Below, piece by piece: positions 23,815 to 51,268 of a DNA stretch of 64,000 bases; position 1 is the first letter of the stretch; each line of letters opens with the position of its first letter. A program made the translations under genes and the position numbers. The notes beneath the pieces were generated by a model, which was given only the letters and a program-made list of their open reading frames with translations, searched no databases and was not told the DNA's origin. The DNA is from Limisphaera sp. GTDB lineage: Bacteria > Verrucomicrobiota > Verrucomicrobiia > Limisphaerales > Limisphaeraceae. The stretch is taken from contig JANWVC010000013.1 of NCBI GenBank assembly GCA_025057755.1, positions 62,001-126,000 of the forward strand, written 5' to 3'.

Positions 23815-24286
23815 CGCCGTGTGGGAACCGCGCATTGTTGCCTTCTTTTGCAACTGGTGTACTTACACTGCCGCCGATCTGGCCGGTGTGTCCCGCCTGC
23901 AATACGCCCCCAACGTCCGCGTAATCCGACTCATGTGCTCCGGCCGGGTCGATCCGCAGTTCATCTTGGAAGCGCTGGCAAAAGGTGCCGACGGAGTCTT
24001 GATCGGCGGTTGCCATTTCGGCGACTGCCACTACGTCGAAGGTAATTACAAAACCTTTCGCCGCATGCGCATGTTGAACCGGTTGCTCCTTGCGCTGGGC
24101 ATCGAGCCCGAAAGGGTTCGGTTGGAATGGATCGCCGCCTCCGAAGGCGACAAGTTGCGCCACGTCGTCAACGAAATGGTCGATCGCATCCGCGCGCTCG
24201 GTCCGCTCAACCTACCAGAGCGATTCCAAAGCTGGAATCGGGAGCTAAGCCATCAGACTCCGCCGTGCGAAGGTGTCCTTGGCTAG
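23807..24286 (+). CDS. mvhD: Hydrogenase delta subunit MvhD
   Basis: Small [2Fe-2S] protein that carries electrons between the [NiFe]-hydrogenase and HdrA. At 159 residues it has the expected cysteines: FFCNWCTY near residues 14-17, LMCSGRVDP, and GGCHFGDCHYVEGN. These match the MvhD/FrhD family (FlpD-like). The gene overlaps the 3' end of hdrA by 8 nt. Its presence between hdrA and the hydrogenase genes is what marks this as an Mvh-Hdr type complex rather than a stand-alone Hdr-like enzyme. Confidence 0.92.
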   Translation: MPDAVWEPRIVAFFCNWCTYTAADLAGVSRLQYAPNVRVIRLMCSGRVDPQFILEALAKGADGVLIGGCHFGDCHYVEGNYKTFRRMRMLNRLLLALGIEPERVRLEWIAASEGDKLRHVVNEMVDRIRALGPLNLPERFQSWNRELSHQTPPCEGVLG

Positions 24287-24317
24287 AAGGAATCAACCCA
24301 GCTCCCGCAACACAATC

Positions 24318-25310
24318 ATGCCCATGCCCAAGCCTAAACTGGCCATCTACTGGTGCGCTTCCTGCGGCGGCTGCGAGGAAGCCGTCGTAGACTTGGCTGA
24401 GGAGATTGTTGAACTGCTTCAATCTGTAGACCTCGTCTTTTGGCCCTGTGCTACGGACCTCAAACGAGCTGATCTAGAGCACCTACCAGATCAAGCGATT
24501 TTCGTTAGTTTAATAAACGGAGCCATTCGCACCACCGAACAGGAAGAAATGGCGCATCTGCTGCGCCAAAAGAGCCGTTTCCTCATCGCTTACGGCGCAT
24601 GTGCTCATCTGGGAGGCATCCCAGGCTTGGCCAACCAATTCAGCCGCGAAGAGATCCTCCGTTATTACTTTGAAACGGGGCCGTCCACGGTGAACCCAGA
24701 AAAGGCCCAACCCCAGCCCTCTTACACCTGTGGCCATCACACCCTCACGCTCCCCGACCTCCATTACAAGGTCCGAGCATTAGACCAAGTGGTTTCGGTC
24801 GATTACTACATCCCCGGTTGCCCGCCCACCCCTACCCTAACCCGAAACGCATTGAAGGCCCTACTAGCCGAAAACCCGCCGCCGCCGGGCTCCGTACTCG
24901 CGCCCGACGTCGCCCTCTGCGACCAATGTCCCAGAAAGGCTACCAAGCCGCTCCAGCTCAGCTTCACACGTTTTCAGCGACCGCATCTGGCCCCCATTGA
25001 TCCTCAACAATGCCTCCTTGCGCAAGGGTTCCTTTGCTTGGGCCCGGCTACCCGGGCCGGATGCGAAGCACTCTGTCCCCGCGGAAACATGCCATGCAGC
25101 GGTTGCTTCGGCCCCACCTCGCGCGTGCGCGATCCGGGGGCCAAAATCCTTTCCAGCCTCTGCGCCAATCTAGCCCCCAAAACAGCCGAGGAAATCGACG
25201 CCGTGTTGGATACCATCCCTGATCCCATCGGCACGTTCTACCGTTACAGCCTGCCCCGAAGCTTGCTCCGAGGCAAAGTGAATACGTCTCCAACCAATCA
25301 CGCTTCTTGA
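24318..25310 (+). CDS. mvhG: [NiFe]-hydrogenase small subunit (MvhG type)
   Basis: Iron-sulphur subunit of the H2-oxidising dimer. Chosen from the ATG at 24318 it has 330 residues. It shows the N-terminal proximal-cluster motif YWCASCGGCEEAV (Cys13, 16, 19), then ACAHLGG, GCPPTP, and a C-terminal ferredoxin-like cysteine-rich stretch (CDQCPRK, CEALCPRGNMPCSGC). No Tat signal is present, so the enzyme is cytoplasmic, as in group 3. A GTG at 24273 in the same frame would overlap mvhD by 14 nt; no ribosome site decides between them. Followed directly by mvhA. Confidence 0.92.
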   Translation: MPMPKPKLAIYWCASCGGCEEAVVDLAEEIVELLQSVDLVFWPCATDLKRADLEHLPDQAIFVSLINGAIRTTEQEEMAHLLRQKSRFLIAYGACAHLGGIPGLANQFSREEILRYYFETGPSTVNPEKAQPQPSYTCGHHTLTLPDLHYKVRALDQVVSVDYYIPGCPPTPTLTRNALKALLAENPPPPGSVLAPDVALCDQCPRKATKPLQLSFTRFQRPHLAPIDPQQCLLAQGFLCLGPATRAGCEALCPRGNMPCSGCFGPTSRVRDPGAKILSSLCANLAPKTAEEIDAVLDTIPDPIGTFYRYSLPRSLLRGKVNTSPTNHAS

Positions 25311-25315
25311 ACGCC

Positions 25316-26845
25316 ATGCAGGAAGCAGCCCAAGCCATTTGGAATCAGGCAGCTCAACAAGCCAAGGCCGCTTACGCCGAGGCACGTCGCAGGGTCACCA
25401 TCGATCCCATCACCCGGCTGGAAGGACACGGTAAGATCGACATCTTTCTGGACAGTCAGGGCAACGTAGAGCAGGCCTACCTGCAGGTTCCCGAAATGCG
25501 AGGATTCGAGGTCTTTTGCCAAGGCCGGCCCGCCGAGGAAATGCCCCAGATCACGAGCCGAATTTGCGGCGTATGTCCCACCGCCCATCACATGGCCGCT
25601 ACTAAGGCCCTCGACGACCTCTACCGGGTCGAGCCACCACCGGCCGCACGCAAACTCCGCCAGCTCGTTTACCACGCCTTCATGCTGGAGGATCATGCCC
25701 TCCACGTGTACCTGTTGGGCGGACCCGACTTTATCGTGGGTCCGGATGCCCCCGCCGCTCTACGCAATGTGCTCGGGGTCAGCCAAAAGCTTGGACCCGA
25801 CATCGCCCGTCGCGTTATCAGTATCCGACGGCGGCTCCGCGATATGATCACCTGGCTGGGCGGCAAAGTGATTCATCCCGTGCTCGGATTACCGGGAGGA
25901 GTCGCCAAACGACTGGATCCTGCACAGCTTCCCGAGTTTCGACAGTTGGCCATAGATGCCTTGGACTTTGCCCTCTTTACCCACGACATATTCCAGAACC
26001 TCGTGCTGAAAAACCCCGACTACATGCAGCTCATTACTGCATCTGAATACACCCATCGAACCTATTACATGGGGCTCGTTGACGCCCAAAATTGCGTCGA
26101 TTTTTACGACGGCAAGCTCCGCGTGGTCACCCCGGAAGGTCAGCCTTACGCCTGTTTCGATGCCCGCGACTACCGTGATTATATCGCTGAACACGTCGAG
26201 CCGTGGAGTTACGTCAAGTTCTGTTACTTAAAGCCGCTCGGTTGGCACGGCTTCCAAGAAAGTCCCCAAAGCGGCATTTACGCCGTCGCCCCCTTGGCGC
26301 GGCTCAACGCCGCCGAAGCCCCTGCCACACCACGCGCCCGGGAAGCCGCTCAGAGCTTTTTCCAAACCCTCGGAGGTAAACCCGTGCACCACACCCTGGC
26401 CAATCACTGGGCCCGCGCCATTGAGATCATCCAAGCCGCCGAACAAATGGTCCAGCTCATCCATGACCCCGAAATCACCAGCGATCAAATCCGCCGGTTA
26501 CCCACCGAAAAACCCACCGTAGGCATCGGCGTGGTCGAAGCTCCACGCGGCACACTAATCCATCATTACGAAACCGATGAACGCGGCCTCATCACCCGGG
26601 CCAACCTCATCGTTGCCACCCAAAACAACGCAGCCCGCATCGCTATGAGCGTGGATCGCGCCGCTAAGGCCCTAATCCGAAACGGAAACGTCGCGGAGGG
26701 AATCCTCAACCGAATCGAAATGGCATTCCGCGCGTACGACCCATGCTTCGGCTGCGCCACCCATGCTCAACCCGGCCGACTACCGCTCACTCTAAACTTG
26801 TACGACTCCCAAAGGCGCCTGATCCGCCAAATCGTACGACATTGA
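25316..26845 (+). CDS. mvhA: [NiFe]-hydrogenase large subunit (MvhA type, group 3c-like)
   Basis: Active-site subunit that binds the Ni-Fe(CN)2CO centre. The 509 residues have the L1 motif RICGVCPTAHH (Cys84, Cys87) and the L2 motif DPCFGCATH (Cys477, Cys480), i.e. all four metal ligands. After His483 there are 26 residues, consistent with a C-terminal peptide removed by a maturation endopeptidase. The association with mvhD and hdrABC points to group 3c. A TTG at 25307 overlaps the mvhG stop and is an alternative start. No hyp or endopeptidase gene is in the window. Last gene of the operon; 585 nt of non-coding sequence follow. Confidence 0.93.
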   Translation: MQEAAQAIWNQAAQQAKAAYAEARRRVTIDPITRLEGHGKIDIFLDSQGNVEQAYLQVPEMRGFEVFCQGRPAEEMPQITSRICGVCPTAHHMAATKALDDLYRVEPPPAARKLRQLVYHAFMLEDHALHVYLLGGPDFIVGPDAPAALRNVLGVSQKLGPDIARRVISIRRRLRDMITWLGGKVIHPVLGLPGGVAKRLDPAQLPEFRQLAIDALDFALFTHDIFQNLVLKNPDYMQLITASEYTHRTYYMGLVDAQNCVDFYDGKLRVVTPEGQPYACFDARDYRDYIAEHVEPWSYVKFCYLKPLGWHGFQESPQSGIYAVAPLARLNAAEAPATPRAREAAQSFFQTLGGKPVHHTLANHWARAIEIIQAAEQMVQLIHDPEITSDQIRRLPTEKPTVGIGVVEAPRGTLIHHYETDERGLITRANLIVATQNNAARIAMSVDRAAKALIRNGNVAEGILNRIEMAFRAYDPCFGCATHAQPGRLPLTLNLYDSQRRLIRQIVRH

Positions 26846-28871: not shown

Positions 28872-29431
28872 ATGAATGACACGTTAACAATGACAAGCGT
28901 TCGCGCGCGCTTTTAGTGGGAACGGCCCTTCTGGCGCAATCAGTTTCGGCAGTTCCCATTCGACTGGACACCGCTCCGTAAATTCAGCCAAACACATCGG
29001 TTCCGGATAATCCGAGTAACCAAGGGGTGGGGACCACACGCAGTTGGCTCCAAAGTCTGGTAAACGAGTATAACAATGTGAATAATCCCGACCTTCCGAC
29101 TGTAGCTCTAACCCCAGCCGTGGATGTAAGCCCGGTAGATAGCCCTTTGACATTAACCATCTCGGTGTTGGGCTATCTCTACCTGACGGCACACTGGGGA
29201 CAGGGGCAAACGCAGGATCATACTCAAGCCTGGTATCTGGGGGGTTCACTGGCTATCTTCACGCTTAATGCCCCTGGCAGAAACGGCTTATCCGGCTATC
29301 GGCTCTGGAACCAGGTGCCGGTCAATCCACCGCCACCAGTTCCGGATGCAGGTGCGACCGGACTCTTGCTCGCGATGGGAGTAGTGGCTCTGTGGACAGG
29401 CTCGCGTCGGGGTCAAAATAGACTAGGTTGA
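28872..29431 (+). pseudogene. Decayed VPDSG-CTERM-type secreted protein, copy 2
   Basis: Second paralogue. ATG 28872 gives MNDTLTMTSVRARF and stops at TAG 28914. One frame over, from ~28908, the sequence continues as a hydrophobic signal (LLVGTALLAQSVSAVPIRLD), hits TAA at 28979, and runs on in the same frame through WLQSLVNEYNN, TISVLGYLYLTAHWG, QAWYLGG and NGLSGYRLWN. It ends in the sorting-type tail PVPDAGATGLLLAMGVVALW plus arginines. The (CG)n run at the frameshift could be a slippage site. A GTG at 29027 could in principle start a truncated 134-residue product without a signal peptide. Its 3' end overlaps ruvB (opposite strand) by 19 nt. Confidence 0.75.
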
Positions 29432-30444
29432 TCACCGGTGGCCGGTCTAAGTCCCAACTTGCGATAACTACGCTCGGTCGCCACGCGGCCTTGCGGCGTG
29501 CGTTTAAGGTACCCTTCCATGATGAGATAGGGTTCGTACACTTCCTCAATCGTGTCGGGTTCTTCGCCCACTGCCACGGCCAAAGAATTAATGCCCACCG
29601 GCCCGCCGCCAAACTTTACCAGCACTGCCTCGAGAATCCGCTTGTCCATTTCGTCCAAACCGTCCTGATCGATCTCCAACATCGCCAAGGCACGATCGGC
29701 CACTGCACGGTCAATGCGACCATTGCCACGGACCTGGGCATAGTCCCTGACCCGTTTCAACAGATTGTTCGCGATTCGGGGTGTCCCTCGACTCCGCCGC
29801 GCGATCTCAAAGGCGGCTTCCTCATCCACCGTCACTGCCAGGATCCTGGCGGATCGCAGCACCACTTGTTGCAAATCTGCGGCGCTGTAGTAATCCAGTC
29901 GTTCTCGAATGGGAAACCGGGTCAAAAGGGGAGAGGTCAACAGCCCGCTTCGCGTCGTGGCGCCAATCAAGGTGAACCGTGGCAGATTGATCCGAACACT
30001 GCGCGCATTCGGCCCTTGATCAATCACAATGTCCAACTTGAAATCCTCCATCGCGGGGTAGAGGTATTCTTCAATCGTCTTCTGCAACCGGTGAATCTCA
30101 TCGATGAACAGAACGTCACCAGGGTCCAAATTCGTCAATAAGCCGGCCAAGTCGGCCGCCTTTTCGATGGCCGGACCGCTAGTGCAACGGATGTTGGCGT
30201 GCATCGCGCGCGCCAAAATGTGGGCCAGAGTGGTTTTGCCAAGACCGGGTGGCCCACTCAACAGAATGTGATCCATCGGTTCACCACGTTGCCGCGCCGC
30301 TGCCACAGTGATCTCCAACCGTTCCTTGACTCGGGCCTGCCCCACAAACTCGGCAAACACAGAGGGCCGCAGCGTCTGTTCCAACGCCGCGTCGGGTTTG
30401 TTCAATACGTCCCGGATGAAACGCTCGGGCATGAATCGCAACAT
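29413..30444 (-). CDS. ruvB: Holliday junction branch migration ATPase RuvB
   Basis: Hexameric AAA+ motor that drives branch migration of Holliday junctions with RuvA. The 343 residues carry [11 protein letters not shown], Walker [12 protein letters not shown], Walker B FIDEIHRL, the sensor 1 region [11 protein letters not shown], and the C-terminal winged-helix signature [17 protein letters not shown]. The start at 30444 has a G-rich site 7 nt upstream; open frame continues to 30846 but without similarity. ruvA and ruvC are not adjacent. It is the last gene of a long minus-strand run beginning at accA. Confidence 0.95.
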
Positions 30445-30494: not shown

Positions 30495-31289
30495 CTACTC
30501 GACTCGCACGCCCGCCGCCTGCATTGCCTGCCAGCGCCGGTTGAAGGCAACGCAATCTTGGTAACGCACACCCGCGCCGCCGAAAATGTCCAAGGCCGAG
30601 CCAATCGTCAAATCCACGCGACCTCGACTTACACGCGTGACCAATTCCAAGTCTTCCAGGGATCGGGCTCCGCCTGCATACGTCACCGGGATAGGGGACC
30701 ACGCCGCCAATTTCTCCACCAGCTCCAGATCCACGCCCCGGCACAAGCCTTCCACATCTACGGCGTGCACAAGAAATTCCGCACAAGAACGTGCCAGATG
30801 CGCCAGCGTGTCCGCCGATAACACAAGCTCGGTCCAGGTCTGCCAACGGTGAATCACAACTCTGTAAGCGTCACCCTGACGCCGACAACTCAAATCAATC
30901 ACGACACGCTCCCGACCCACACTGCGGACCAACGCTGCCAGGCGATCCTCATCCAACCGTCCATCGCGGAACAACCAACTTGTGACAATTACATGCGAAG
31001 CGCCGGCATCCAGCCAACTTGACGCATTCTCGGCCGTCACCCCGCCGCCGACCTGTAACCCGCCCGGGTAAACTGCCAGAGCCGACTTCGCTTGTTCCTC
31101 ATTGCCTGGGCCCAACATGATCACATGGCCACCGGTCAGACCGTCCTGCCGGTACAACGCGGCGTACCATGAAGCCGGTCGATCGGATACAAAATGCGTC
31201 TGGAGCCGATTCGGAGCAGCATCGTCCAGTGTGCCGCCCACGATTTGCTTCACCCGCCCATCATGTAAGTCGATACACGGTCGAAACAT
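30495..31289 (-). CDS. hisA: Eukaryotic-type HisA (ProFAR isomerase, HIS6-like)
   Basis: Amadori isomerase of histidine biosynthesis converting ProFAR to PRFAR on a (beta/alpha)8 barrel. The 264 residues follow the fungal/plant HIS6 pattern rather than the usual bacterial His[18 protein letters not shown] at the N-terminus (Asp7 the likely catalytic acid), then [38 protein letters not shown]-like [24 protein letters not shown], and [11 protein letters not shown]. The start at 31289 has GGA 6 nt before it; a GTG at 31319 is possible. No other his gene is nearby. Probably acquired by, or retained in, only some bacterial lineages. Confidence 0.9.
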
Positions 31290-31350
31290 CTCATCCAATC
31301 TACCCAATCGGGTTCGCACAACCAGCCCGGAGCCAGTGGCGCGCGGTCGT

Positions 31351-32958
31351 TTATCTGACGGAGTCAGTCTTGGAACCGCTCAAACCAACCTGTGGGTGTC
31401 GCCCCATCCACCAGTAACGGGCAAAGTAAAGCATCAATCCTGCTGCCAACCAGAGTCCAAATCGCCACCACGTGCGTGCCGGCAATTGAGCCATCAACCA
31501 AAGGCTGGTCGCCATGGCGCCCAACGGCACCCAGGGCACCCACGGCGTCCGAAAAGGGCGAGGCCGATCCGGCTCACGCCACCGCAACACAAGCACGCCG
31601 GCCGCCACCACGGCGAAGGCAAACAAAGTCCCAATGTTACACAGCTCGACCATCTCCTCGATGTGAGTAATGGCCGCGACCCCGGCCACAAACGCACCCG
31701 TGATAAGCGTCGCCACGTGTGGTGTCCGGTATTGCGCATGCACGCGTGCCGCCCATGCAGGCAACAGGCCATCGCGAGCCATGCAAAAGAGAATCCGTGG
31801 TTGCCCAAGTTGAAACACCAACAAGACCGAGGCCGTAGCGACCACGGCACCCAGCGCCATCCAACCACCCAACCAGGATACACCCTTCTCCACAAACGCA
31901 AGCGCCAACGGGTCGGCTACATGTCGCAGCCGTTGCCACGGCACCATGCCCGTCAGTACCAATGACACCGCCACATACAACCCTGCGCAAACGAGTAAAC
32001 TGCCCAATATCCCTCGCGGTATATCCCTCTGCGGATTTCGCGTCTCCTCCGCTGCGGTGGAAACCGCATCAAAACCAATGTAAGCAAAGAACACAATGGC
32101 GGCGCCGTGCATGACTCCTTTCCACCCGTGTGGCATGAATGGCTGCCAGTTTGCAGGATCCACATAAAACGCCCCCACCCCCACAAACAGGCCGATGATC
32201 AACAACTTCAACCACACCATGGCCGCATTGAAACGCGCACTTAGCTGAATCCCGCGGACTAGGACCCACGTGATCAAGCCAACAATGCCGGCCGCCGGTA
32301 GGTTCAGCACGAGCGGTACCCCCCATACACGCGGCGCTTCCGTGAGTGCCCGGGCCTTTTGTTGCAATGTCAGCGGCAGCGCCGACGCGTCGCCCCCCTG
32401 AACCACCCATGCCTGAAGCTCCCGCGCCGCAGTGGCGGCCGACCGATAATCCGTCCCTAACCATGAAGGCCATGTCCAGCCCAGTCCGGCCCACAACCTC
32501 TGAAAATAATCGGACCAACTAATGGCCACTGCGACGTTCCCAATGGCATACTCCAGGATCAGATCCCAACCTATGATCCACGCTACCAGCTCGCCCAGGG
32601 TGGCATAGGCATACGTGTAGGCCGAACCCGAAACCGGCACCAACGCCGCCAGCTCCGCATAACACAGCCCTGCCAACCCACACGCAACAGCAACCAGCAA
32701 AAACGACAAAACCAGGGCCGGACCCGCCCCCGCATAATGTTCGCCACCCGCCGCTGCCGTGCCTGCAGTGGAAAAGATACCTGCACCCACAATCGCGCCC
32801 ACACCCAACAAAACCAACTGACCCGATCCCAACGCCCGGCGCAGGCGCAGCTCAGGAGGGATCTGCGACTCTACCAACGCCTCAATAGGTTTCCGACGCC
32901 ACAAACGGGTACCGACTTGCATTCGGCTCTGCTGTACGGTCGCGTTTGCGCCATCCAT
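31351..32958 (-). CDS. APC-family amino acid permease
   Basis: Cytoplasmic-membrane transporter of about 535 residues with 12-14 predicted helices. The N-terminal signature LVLLGVGAIVGAGIFSTAG (TM1, unwound Gly-rich segment) and the segment FFAYIGFDAVSTAAEETRNPQRDIPRGI (helix 6 region) match cationic amino acid transporters (CAT subfamily). A long loop between helices 4 and 5 contains WLGTDYRS. The start at 32958 follows GAGG at 6 nt; ATG 32922 is an alternative. Substrate cannot be read from the sequence. It lies 20 nt after the small membrane protein gene in an apparent operon. Confidence 0.88.
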   Translation of the reverse strand: MDGANATVQQSRMQVGTRLWRRKPIEALVESQIPPELRLRRALGSGQLVLLGVGAIVGAGIFSTAGTAAAGGEHYAGAGPALVLSFLLVAVACGLAGLCYAELAALVPVSGSAYTYAYATLGELVAWIIGWDLILEYAIGNVAVAISWSDYFQRLWAGLGWTWPSWLGTDYRSAATAARELQAWVVQGGDASALPLTLQQKARALTEAPRVWGVPLVLNLPAAGIVGLITWVLVRGIQLSARFNAAMVWLKLLIIGLFVGVGAFYVDPANWQPFMPHGWKGVMHGAAIVFFAYIGFDAVSTAAEETRNPQRDIPRGILGSLLVCAGLYVAVSLVLTGMVPWQRLRHVADPLALAFVEKGVSWLGGWMALGAVVATASVLLVFQLGQPRILFCMARDGLLPAWAARVHAQYRTPHVATLITGAFVAGVAAITHIEEMVELCNIGTLFAFAVVAAGVLVLRWREPDRPRPFRTPWVPWVPLGAMATSLWLMAQLPARTWWRFGLWLAAGLMLYFARYWWMGRHPQVGLSGSKTDSVR

Positions 32959-32978
32959 CTCGCCTCGTGCCACTAACG

Positions 32979-33401
32979 CTATACGTCTATGACCGGACCT
33001 GAACCACCAGCGGGCGGTTTGCCCCAACGAGTTCGTCGCACCACCACTGGATCCCCGCGTAATCCGGTCAGTCGGGCTAACAATCCACTCGTCACACTGA
33101 TGACCAAAGCACCCCAGAACGCGGCCCAAAAATCTTCCACAATAAAGCGCGGCGCCATCAGCCAACCCACAAACCACAACAACGCCCCGTTGATCACCAA
33201 CATAAAAAGCCCCAACGTTACCAACACCAAGGGCAAAGACAAAACCACCAACACCGGACGAACCACCGCATTCAGAATCCCCAACAACAATGAGGCTACC
33301 ATTAGGTCAAGCGCCTCCTGATAACGCACCCCCGGCACAAGATACACCGCTACCAACACGGCAAGCGTGCCTATCAACCATTGCTGCAAGAACCGTTTCA
33401 T
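32979..33401 (-). CDS. Four-helix membrane protein, PF04020 ('phage holin family') type
   Basis: A 140-residue protein with four hydrophobic helices: WLIGTLAVLVAVYLVPGV, LLGILNAVVRPVLVVLSLPL, LGLFMLVINGALLWFVGWL and FWAAFWGALVISVTSGLLA. The motif GILNAVVRPVL and the following LTLGLF-like LVTLGLFMLVINAL pattern are typical of the widespread PF04020 family, named after holins but usually a chromosomal protein of unknown function. Nothing phage-like surrounds it. The start at 33401 has GGGA upstream. It begins 11 nt after manA ends. Confidence 0.82.
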   Translation of the reverse strand: MKRFLQQWLIGTLAVLVAVYLVPGVRYQEALDLMVASLLLGILNAVVRPVLVVLSLPLVLVTLGLFMLVINGALLWFVGWLMAPRFIVEDFWAAFWGALVISVTSGLLARLTGLRGDPVVVRRTRWGKPPAGGSGPVIDV

Positions 33402-49912: not shown

Positions 49913-50488
49913 TTACGCACCCGCGGGCGGATCCAATTGCAATCTTCCTTCCGAACCGGCTGCGGCACTCCCGCATCGGGGCCATTTCCAATGCACCCAC
50001 CCCCGATAAGCCATCAGCCCAGCAGCGCCCCCGCTCACATCCACCAACACATCGAAAAGACTACTGTGGCGTCCCGGCACAAAAGCCTGGTGCCATTCGT
50101 CAGTCACCGCATAAAGCGCCACCAGCGCAAGCGCGTACGCTGCCCAACGCCGTTCCGGTAGTCGGCTTCCCGATTGACAGGTCCTCCAGAATGCTCGGTA
50201 CAAGAGTCCCCCCAGGACGGCGTATTCGACAAAGTGCGCTAGCTTACGCACCACCAACACAGTCAGATCCACCTGCTCCTCCGTCCAATGCGGGAACAGC
50301 CACCGAACCACCGGCCCGATCAAGCGCGAAGTTCGGGAAAAGGAGGCGCGATCGGCTGAGGCACTGAAGATAAGCGCCATCCACACCAGCGGCGGCAACC
50401 AGTACTTAAAGCATGCACGCGCCCGTTGCACGGGGCCCAGACAATCATTTGCCTCCTGCGCCTGCAAGCCCGTCCGAGATTGTGCCAA
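49913..50488 (-). CDS. VanZ-like membrane protein
   Basis: A 191-residue protein with four hydrophobic helices and the VanZ-like pattern: LPPLVWMALIFSASAD, RKLAHFVEYAVLGGLLYRA, AVTDEWHQAFVPGRHSSLFDVLVDVSGGAAG. The family includes VanZ of teicoplanin resistance but most members are chromosomal proteins of unknown role; no other van gene is present, so no resistance is implied. Read 22 nt before comEC, likely co-transcribed. Confidence 0.87.
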   Translation of the reverse strand: MAQSRTGLQAQEANDCLGPVQRARACFKYWLPPLVWMALIFSASADRASFSRTSRLIGPVVRWLFPHWTEEQVDLTVLVVRKLAHFVEYAVLGGLLYRAFWRTCQSGSRLPERRWAAYALALVALYAVTDEWHQAFVPGRHSSLFDVLVDVSGGAAGLMAYRGWVHWKWPRCGSAAAGSEGRLQLDPPAGA

Positions 50489-51268
50489 CCCAACGACCCG
50501 TCCACATTCAGGCCCACGCGTCTTTTCTCATCGCATGGCCCGCGGCTGACCTCGGATCGTTCCACAACTCCAACGGCAGCCCGCGCTCTACCTCTGCTCG
50601 GTTTGATCACCTGCAGGCTCACCGATCCGGCTCCGGCTGCGGCAAACGATCCACACTCCAACCTTTCCCCGGACTGGCAACTGCTATTCGACGGTCAAAC
50701 GCCCCGTGGTTGGCGAGCCTGGAGCAACGCAGTCTTTCCAACACGCGGATGGACCTTCATTGATCGCTGTCTGGTGCACCAAGCAGGCGGTCGCGCAGGA
50801 GATCTGATCACAGAATCGGAGTTTAAAGATTTGGAACTCGAATGGGCATGACGCATTGTGTCCGCCGGCAACAACGGCGTGAAATACCTTGTGCTCAAAT
50901 CCCGCCCCTCCGCGCCGGGTCATGAGTATCAGACGGTGGACAACCACACCGTACGCGATCCGCGTCATCACACCGCGGCATTCTACGACGTGCTTGTCTC
51001 GCATCCAGCCGTTCAATCCTTGCCTCCGGGCCGGTGGAATCGTTCCCAAATCGTGATCCGGGGTGTCACCGTCGAGCACTGGCTGAACGACGTCCAGGTG
51101 CTGACATGCGAACCGGACAGCCCCGCCCTCAGGGAGGCCATCCGCGCCAGCAAATTCCGAGGGGAATCCGGCTTCGGACAAAAATGCCGCGGCCGGATCA
51201 TGCTCACCGACCACGGCTCGGAAACTTGGGACCGGAACATTCGTATCCGGTTGCCCTGCCCGACTTAA
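50426..51268 (+). pseudogene. DUF1080 (3-keto-disaccharide hydrolase-type) gene with in-frame TGA
   Basis: The family is an exported concanavalin-like domain, some members of which hydrolyse 3-keto-disaccharides. Similarity starts at DWQLLFDGQTPRGWRAW and GWTFIDRCLVHQAGGRAGDLIT, runs to ELEWA, meets TGA at 50849-50851, and resumes in the same frame with RIVSAGNNGVKYLVLK, HEYQTVDN, PGRWNRSQIVIRG, VEHWLNDVQV and a normal C-terminus. A Trp codon (TGG) in place of TGA would restore the reading. A possible signal segment (ALPLLGLITC) precedes, but the start is unclear and the 5' part overlaps VanZ on the other strand. A single nonsense change best explains it. Confidence 0.72.

Follow-up and report, generated by a model that had tools for sequence, protein, structure and literature searches.

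A HIS6-type HisA as the ordinary form of the enzyme in a verrucomicrobial order, and signs of a separate ancestry for the fungal and plant enzymes

A contig of the verrucomicrobial bacterium Limisphaera sp. carries a hisA gene of the type known from yeast HIS6 and plant HISN3, which raises the question of whether a eukaryotic gene has displaced the bacterial one here or whether the supposedly eukaryotic type is at home in bacteria. The whole stretch of DNA that was analyzed, referred to as the window, comprises 64,000 nucleotides. Within it, hisA (HIS6/HISN3 type, TIGR02129) occupies positions 30495..31289 on the minus strand and encodes 264 amino acids from an ATG at 31289 to a stop at 30495; an alternative GTG start at 31319, upstream of the ATG, would add 10 residues. 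On the same strand, ruvB (29413..30444) begins 50 nt past the hisA stop, and an open reading frame upstream, about 60 nt from the hisA ATG (31351..33177, minus strand), was named an APC-type amino acid permease by reading its translation, its start codon being uncertain. The first-pass annotation of this DNA had described a HIS6-like gene flanked by ruvB and a permease; the neighbors are as described, and every motif it listed occurs in the frame 30495-31289 in the order given. A conserved hisA-ruvB neighborhood was considered and rejected, as the window locus stands alone among the 59 loci of the Verrucomicrobiota sample, the arrangement being absent from the 58 related loci within flanks of at most 1.5 kb, some of them shorter. 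Elsewhere in the window (24273-26845, plus strand), two adjacent open reading frames resemble the small and large subunits of a [NiFe]-hydrogenase, as judged by eye from RLEGHGKI and DPCFGCATH.

Profile comparison assigns the protein to the HIS6 family. It matches the NCBIfam model TIGR02129 (hisA_euk) over its full length (model positions 3-255 of 255) with 378.3 bits (2e-113), above the curated cut-off of 229.3, but stays below the cut-offs for canonical HisA (TIGR00007, 72.2 bits, cut-off 228.95), HisF (TIGR00735, 36.5 bits, cut-off 294.55) and bifunctional HisA-TrpF/PriA (TIGR01919, 30.6 bits, cut-off 306.45), and with 59 bits lies far below the cut-off for WbuZ. With 378 bits for TIGR02129 against 72 for TIGR00007, the earlier description of the gene as HIS6-type and unlike standard HisA is borne out. 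The best sequence matches in the PDB are 9fcf (1.7e-79, 270 bits) and yeast HIS6 (2agk, 4.5e-74, 252 bits), and the next is HisF (1.6e-10, 44 bits). An AlphaFold model built from a 32-sequence alignment, in which the window HisA is 49-70% identical to the 31 other rows, has a mean pLDDT of 94.6, and its fold, compared by Foldseek, is that of the solved HIS6/HISN3 enzymes: Medicago HISN3 (9fcf; TM 0.92, 52% identity) and yeast His6 (2agk; TM 0.83, 43% identity) come first, and canonical HisA/HisF folds rank below them with a TM of about 0.7. The nearest solved structure, Medicago truncatula HISN3 (9fcf, 9fcg), is a plant enzyme that takes another position in the trees than the window HisA, and its crystallised chain is a D57N mutant, the PDB titles of both entries naming D57N mutants with ProFAR and PrFAR. 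Yeast HIS6 has family, fold and conserved site in common with the window HisA, but also has a one-residue insertion and a VAMNxWQ segment, as do other Verrucomicrobiae families, both of which are missing from the window HisA. Canonical bacterial HisA (TIGR00007, for example that of S. enterica) shares the superfamily, the fold and presumably the reaction, whereas residues on the strands bearing the catalytic acids differ in the alignment.

Residue conservation was counted over 113 readable HIS6-type rows of the alignment, yeast and plant included. D132, S134, C135, W149, H175, E180 and Y204, along with others, are invariant in all 113, and the window protein thus carries the residues common to the yeast and plant enzymes (D132, S134, W149, H175, E180). 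Asp7 (31269..31271, minus strand), the counterpart of the first catalytic Asp of canonical HisA (SeHisA D7), is an aspartate in 112 of the 113 rows; only the plant chain, which is a D57N mutant, departs from this. In the DLSCR motif (Asp132-Leu-Ser134, 30888..30896, minus strand) it is Ser134 that aligns with the strand 5 Asp of canonical HisA and HisF, with Asp132 two residues earlier. Trp149 (30843..30845, minus strand) aligns with the Trp of canonical HisA, and Glu180 of DVEG (30750..30752, minus strand) with the Asp of the canonical xRDG. In Salmonella HisA the catalytic Asp is reported to be D176 and the stacking Trp to be W145 (PMC9088769); going by the alignment, Glu180 would probably be the counterpart of SeHisA D176.

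The window genome (3.63 Mb, 93.8% complete) contains two PF00977 matches above the cut-off, the window hisA and a free HisF on another contig, and TIGR00007 recovers the same two genes, both below its cut-off. The check for an additional bacterial hisA that the first-pass annotation had proposed therefore returned none by either profile, with a missed copy possible at 93.8% completeness, and a second, canonical hisA was dropped as a candidate. The lone position of the gene, earlier taken as a sign of replacement, is real in that hisA lies outside a his cluster, but it is no sign of foreign origin, since the other his genes tested likewise lie on separate contigs (hisF on contig C6, hisD on C2, hisB on C33, hisG on C17).

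Across the Verrucomicrobiota the two types of HisA exclude each other. In the phylum sample 160 of 387 genomes score above the TIGR02129 cut-off and 195 of 387 above that of TIGR00007. With the canonical type defined by a best TIGR00007 E-value of at most 1e-56, the values being bimodal with a gap from 1e-48 to 1e-57, and with the tables matched by hand, 160 genomes are HIS6-type only, 204 canonical only, none both and 23 neither. For the window's order the figures are 86 of 97 genomes above the TIGR02129 cut-off and 0 of 97 with a canonical hisA above the TIGR00007 cut-off. The 11 order genomes with no HIS6-type copy above the cut-off comprise fragments (G635, G656) and mostly incomplete bins; G623 (90% complete) and G671 (92%) also belong to them. 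The absence of a canonical hisA from the profile searches of the window genome and the mutual exclusion across the phylum sample support the conclusion that the window gene stands in for canonical HisA, and the two forms would replace each other mutually. Within genus g4 of family f4, for which 23 genomes were sampled and counted by eye, 15 are HIS6-type, 4 canonical and 4 neither; here one HisA type gives way to the other, or histidine synthesis disappears, within a single genus. The protein of L049, named as a Verrucomicrobiales MAG, is identical to that of L196 from the window's order, which places the order in the Verrucomicrobiota. One genome carries two equally scoring HIS6-type genes about 2 kb apart (G157:C42:48040-48789 and 49977-50726).

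In order to place the window gene, three trees were computed in which yeast HIS6 and plant HISN3 were the two eukaryotic sequences sampled: a first tree of 84 of the 114 alignment rows, without 29 Lachnospiraceae/Clostridia-type rows and the fragment L102; an outgroup tree that included canonical HisA, with 5 of 9 named canonical rows; and a third tree of 66 rows, with 15 of the 29 other loci of the order. As the first-pass annotation had expected, the window HisA did not fall inside ordinary bacterial HisA; its companions in the first and third trees, however, are genes of its own order and not the yeast or plant enzymes. In the third tree the order does not form a single clean clade: it shows five label changes and is broken by L210 and by the phylum-level outsider L015, so that some transfer inside the phylum is likely. 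The HIS6 type is nevertheless the standard, mainly vertically inherited HisA of the window's order, so the window gene did not reach this bacterium recently from a eukaryote. A displacement of hisA by a eukaryotic HIS6 that entered this bacterium or one of its recent ancestors, one direction of the gene replacement suggested in the first-pass annotation, accords with the strong similarity to the yeast and plant enzymes and with the absence of canonical hisA from the genome; it is nonetheless highly improbable, as the HIS6 type is found order-wide, phylum-wide and in many bacterial phyla, as the window protein shares 75% identity with an order relative against 53% with the plant and 50% with the yeast enzyme, and as yeast and plant do not form one clade. 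What stood of the proposed replacement is that a HIS6-type gene takes the place of hisA; what fell is the eukaryotic intruder, given its presence in 86 of 97 genomes of the order and in many phyla. We are confident that the HIS6-type HisA replaces canonical HisA here as the ordinary form of a bacterial order and not as a eukaryotic arrival.

Beyond the phylum, a profile search of genome contigs confirmed at least 589 HIS6-type loci across bacteria, and with these, the 160 of 387 phylum genomes and the 86 of 97 order genomes, a one-off transfer from eukaryote to bacterium was rejected. The best 80 of the at least 589 loci, taken for comparison, include Desulfobacterota, Armatimonadota, Latescibacterota, Gemmatimonadota, Planctomycetota (Scalindua), Endozoicomonas, Paenibacillaceae, Lachnospiraceae, Fibrobacterota and others; the TIGR02129 members of Desulfobacterota, Lachnospiraceae, Paenibacillaceae, Fibrobacterota and others belong to the same family as the window HisA. 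Among 49 HIS6-type genomes searched from these best 80 loci, one contained a canonical hisA above the cut-off, a Nitrospina MAG (G411 / L064) in which the HIS6-type gene sits on a contig of 4.5 kb, perhaps through a binning error. The type is sporadic in the Desulfobacterota sample (10 of 148 genomes), and its spread there was thus probably by transfer between bacteria. The HIS6 type would, from this distribution, be an old and widely distributed bacterial HisA subfamily. A literature search on bacterial HIS6-type HisA, including the TIGR02129 name, led to no relevant paper, nor did any enzyme assay or genetic study of a bacterial member come to light; the comment attached to TIGR02129 itself presumably mentions Fibrobacter succinogenes and a transfer from plants. 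Despite its 'eukaryotic' label, the family is common among bacteria as a form of HisA that alternates with the canonical one across and even within genera, and because of this alternation, pathway tools that look for canonical hisA only would wrongly report histidine auxotrophs among Verrucomicrobiota and Lachnospiraceae.

The genomic context of relatives bears on function. In four Paenibacillaceae loci (L067, L069, L078 and L092, from Cohnella/Paenibacillus), which are 4 of the 80 named loci drawn as the best from at least 589, the HIS6-type gene is flanked by hisH and hisF within the run hisG-D-B-H-A-F-IE; the operon genes were found by tblastn with hisF, hisD, hisB and hisG of the window genome, while hisH and hisIE were named from translations. 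In contrast to these genes, the window hisA stands outside any his operon. For Roseburia, a complete histidine pathway has been predicted in all genomes studied, with hisA, under NCBI's TIGR02129 enzyme name, apart from the other his operons (PMC7478625). The Roseburia porci locus L103 carries the HIS6 type. From genomic context, we infer that the window HisA would be catalytically active in this organism and would convert ProFAR to PRFAR for HisF/HisH. Another role within the HisA/HisF superfamily, for instance as a promiscuous PriA-like or a HisF2/WbuZ-like enzyme, could be read from the superfamily held in common (WbuZ 59 bits, HisF 36 bits) and from the solitary window gene outside a his operon, but we give it very little credence: the WbuZ and HisF matches are far below the cut-offs, the HIS6 type and canonical HisA are mutually exclusive across the phylum sample, and in relatives the gene fills the hisA slot of his operons.

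If the HIS6 type is ordinary in bacteria, the position of the two eukaryotic sequences becomes the more telling part of the trees. Yeast groups with the Verrucomicrobiae families f3, f4, f6, f21 and f9, with support in the first tree of 97/97 for a 16-row set and 100/96 for a 20-row set that adds f9 and two IMG/VR contigs, in the third tree of 100/93 for yeast with 12 such Verrucomicrobiae rows, and in the outgroup tree, here without f9, of 91/96, not starred. Yeast HIS6 is 58.6% identical to L008 and 45.2% identical to the plant enzyme. A one-residue insertion after TSxLF is shared by yeast and 16 of the 17 rows that make up the yeast-associated bacterial group and is present in 0 of 95 other readable rows, and VAMN[RK]WQ occurs in yeast and in 15 of these 17 rows and in no other of the 114. 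A clade of the bacterial group without yeast was not rejected (p 0.18), for which reason a firm nesting of yeast inside the Verrucomicrobiae was dropped; yeast is either nested or sister. Plant HISN3 is separated from yeast by several starred branches, and forcing the two together costs 52.7 log units (AU p 0.004), the pair having been picked for this test after the tree was seen and yeast being a long branch (1.1-1.75). Plant HISN3 joins Fibrobacterota with a starred 99/90 in the third tree and a weak 84/39 in the outgroup tree and has no clear position in the first; with the trees in disagreement, its firm placement was dropped as well.

The eukaryotes thus attach at two separate places in bacterial diversity, which favors transfer from bacteria to eukaryotes, a direction that we infer from these trees. 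The eukaryotic HIS6 genes most likely descend from bacterial ones, and a bacterial origin with two separate uptakes is favored on the two eukaryotic sequences only. The more specific scenario, that HIS6 was taken up at least twice, by fungi from a Verrucomicrobiota-like donor and by plants from a different bacterial lineage, has in our view an even chance of being right; the plant donor may have been Fibrobacterota-like, as one tree has it, the other trees showing no clear donor. The reverse course, in which the HIS6 type passed anciently from one eukaryotic lineage into bacteria and then spread among them, draws on the root of the family not being fixed: canonical HisA is joined to the outgroup tree by a branch of about 10 changes per column, and as this branch is saturated and the bootstrap had not settled, rooting with canonical HisA was dropped and the root from that tree left unused. 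It also finds a parallel in a 2007 study that argued for transfer of HisHF, the next enzyme, from plants to deltaproteobacteria (PMC1963479). We consider it unlikely, since the plant and yeast enzymes attach in separate regions of bacterial diversity (AU p 0.004; the insertion) and since bacterial diversity far exceeds that of the two sampled eukaryotes.

The fused HisHF was itself met in the genomes compared here. The 2007 proposal of plant-to-bacteria transfer concerned HisHF in two deltaproteobacteria and was drawn from 21 sequences, three of them bacterial (PMC1963479), and plant HISN2 has been reported to derive from Deltaproteobacteria (PMC8102479). Where Desulfobacterota carry HIS6-type HisA, and likewise in a Nitrospirae bin, the HisF match belongs to a long open frame whose first part is HisH; twelve such frames from Desulfobacterota and allied genomes (L160-L171, e.g. 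L160:329-1939, plus strand, and L168:1303-2910, minus strand) encode a HIS7-type fused HisHF, some of them truncated at contig ends or interrupted by a frame break. The L168 protein scores 594 bits against yeast HIS7 (1jvn) as opposed to at most 174 against free HisF structures, and L168 and L160 are above the NCBIfam cut-offs for both HisH and HisF. TIGR02129 members of Desulfobacterota thus accompany a fused HisHF, whereas the window genome has a free HisF. A search of mostly open-access literature turned up no paper that connects HIS6-type HisA with a fused HisHF in these bacteria, and none on HIS6 with Verrucomicrobiota and fungi. Both 'eukaryotic' peculiarities, the HIS6-type HisA and the HIS7-type HisHF, coexist in bacteria and may have reached eukaryotes from there. 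For its order the window gene is unremarkable, and interest falls instead on fungal and plant HIS6, which seem to have arisen separately. Should the tree hold up with more eukaryotes, the account of how fungi and plants came by the HIS6 step would change, and the direction of transfer once claimed for HisHF could be put to the test anew.

HIS6-type genes also occur on two IMG/VR contigs listed as viral. On a 72-kb contig (L116:4992-5741, plus strand), the hisA directly follows a gene that by eye is groEL-like, and its protein is missing most of the RWQ loop segment. On a 14-kb contig (L115:4992-5768, plus strand), a second such hisA is, oddly, the only open reading frame of at least 150 amino acids in the 10.7 kb examined.
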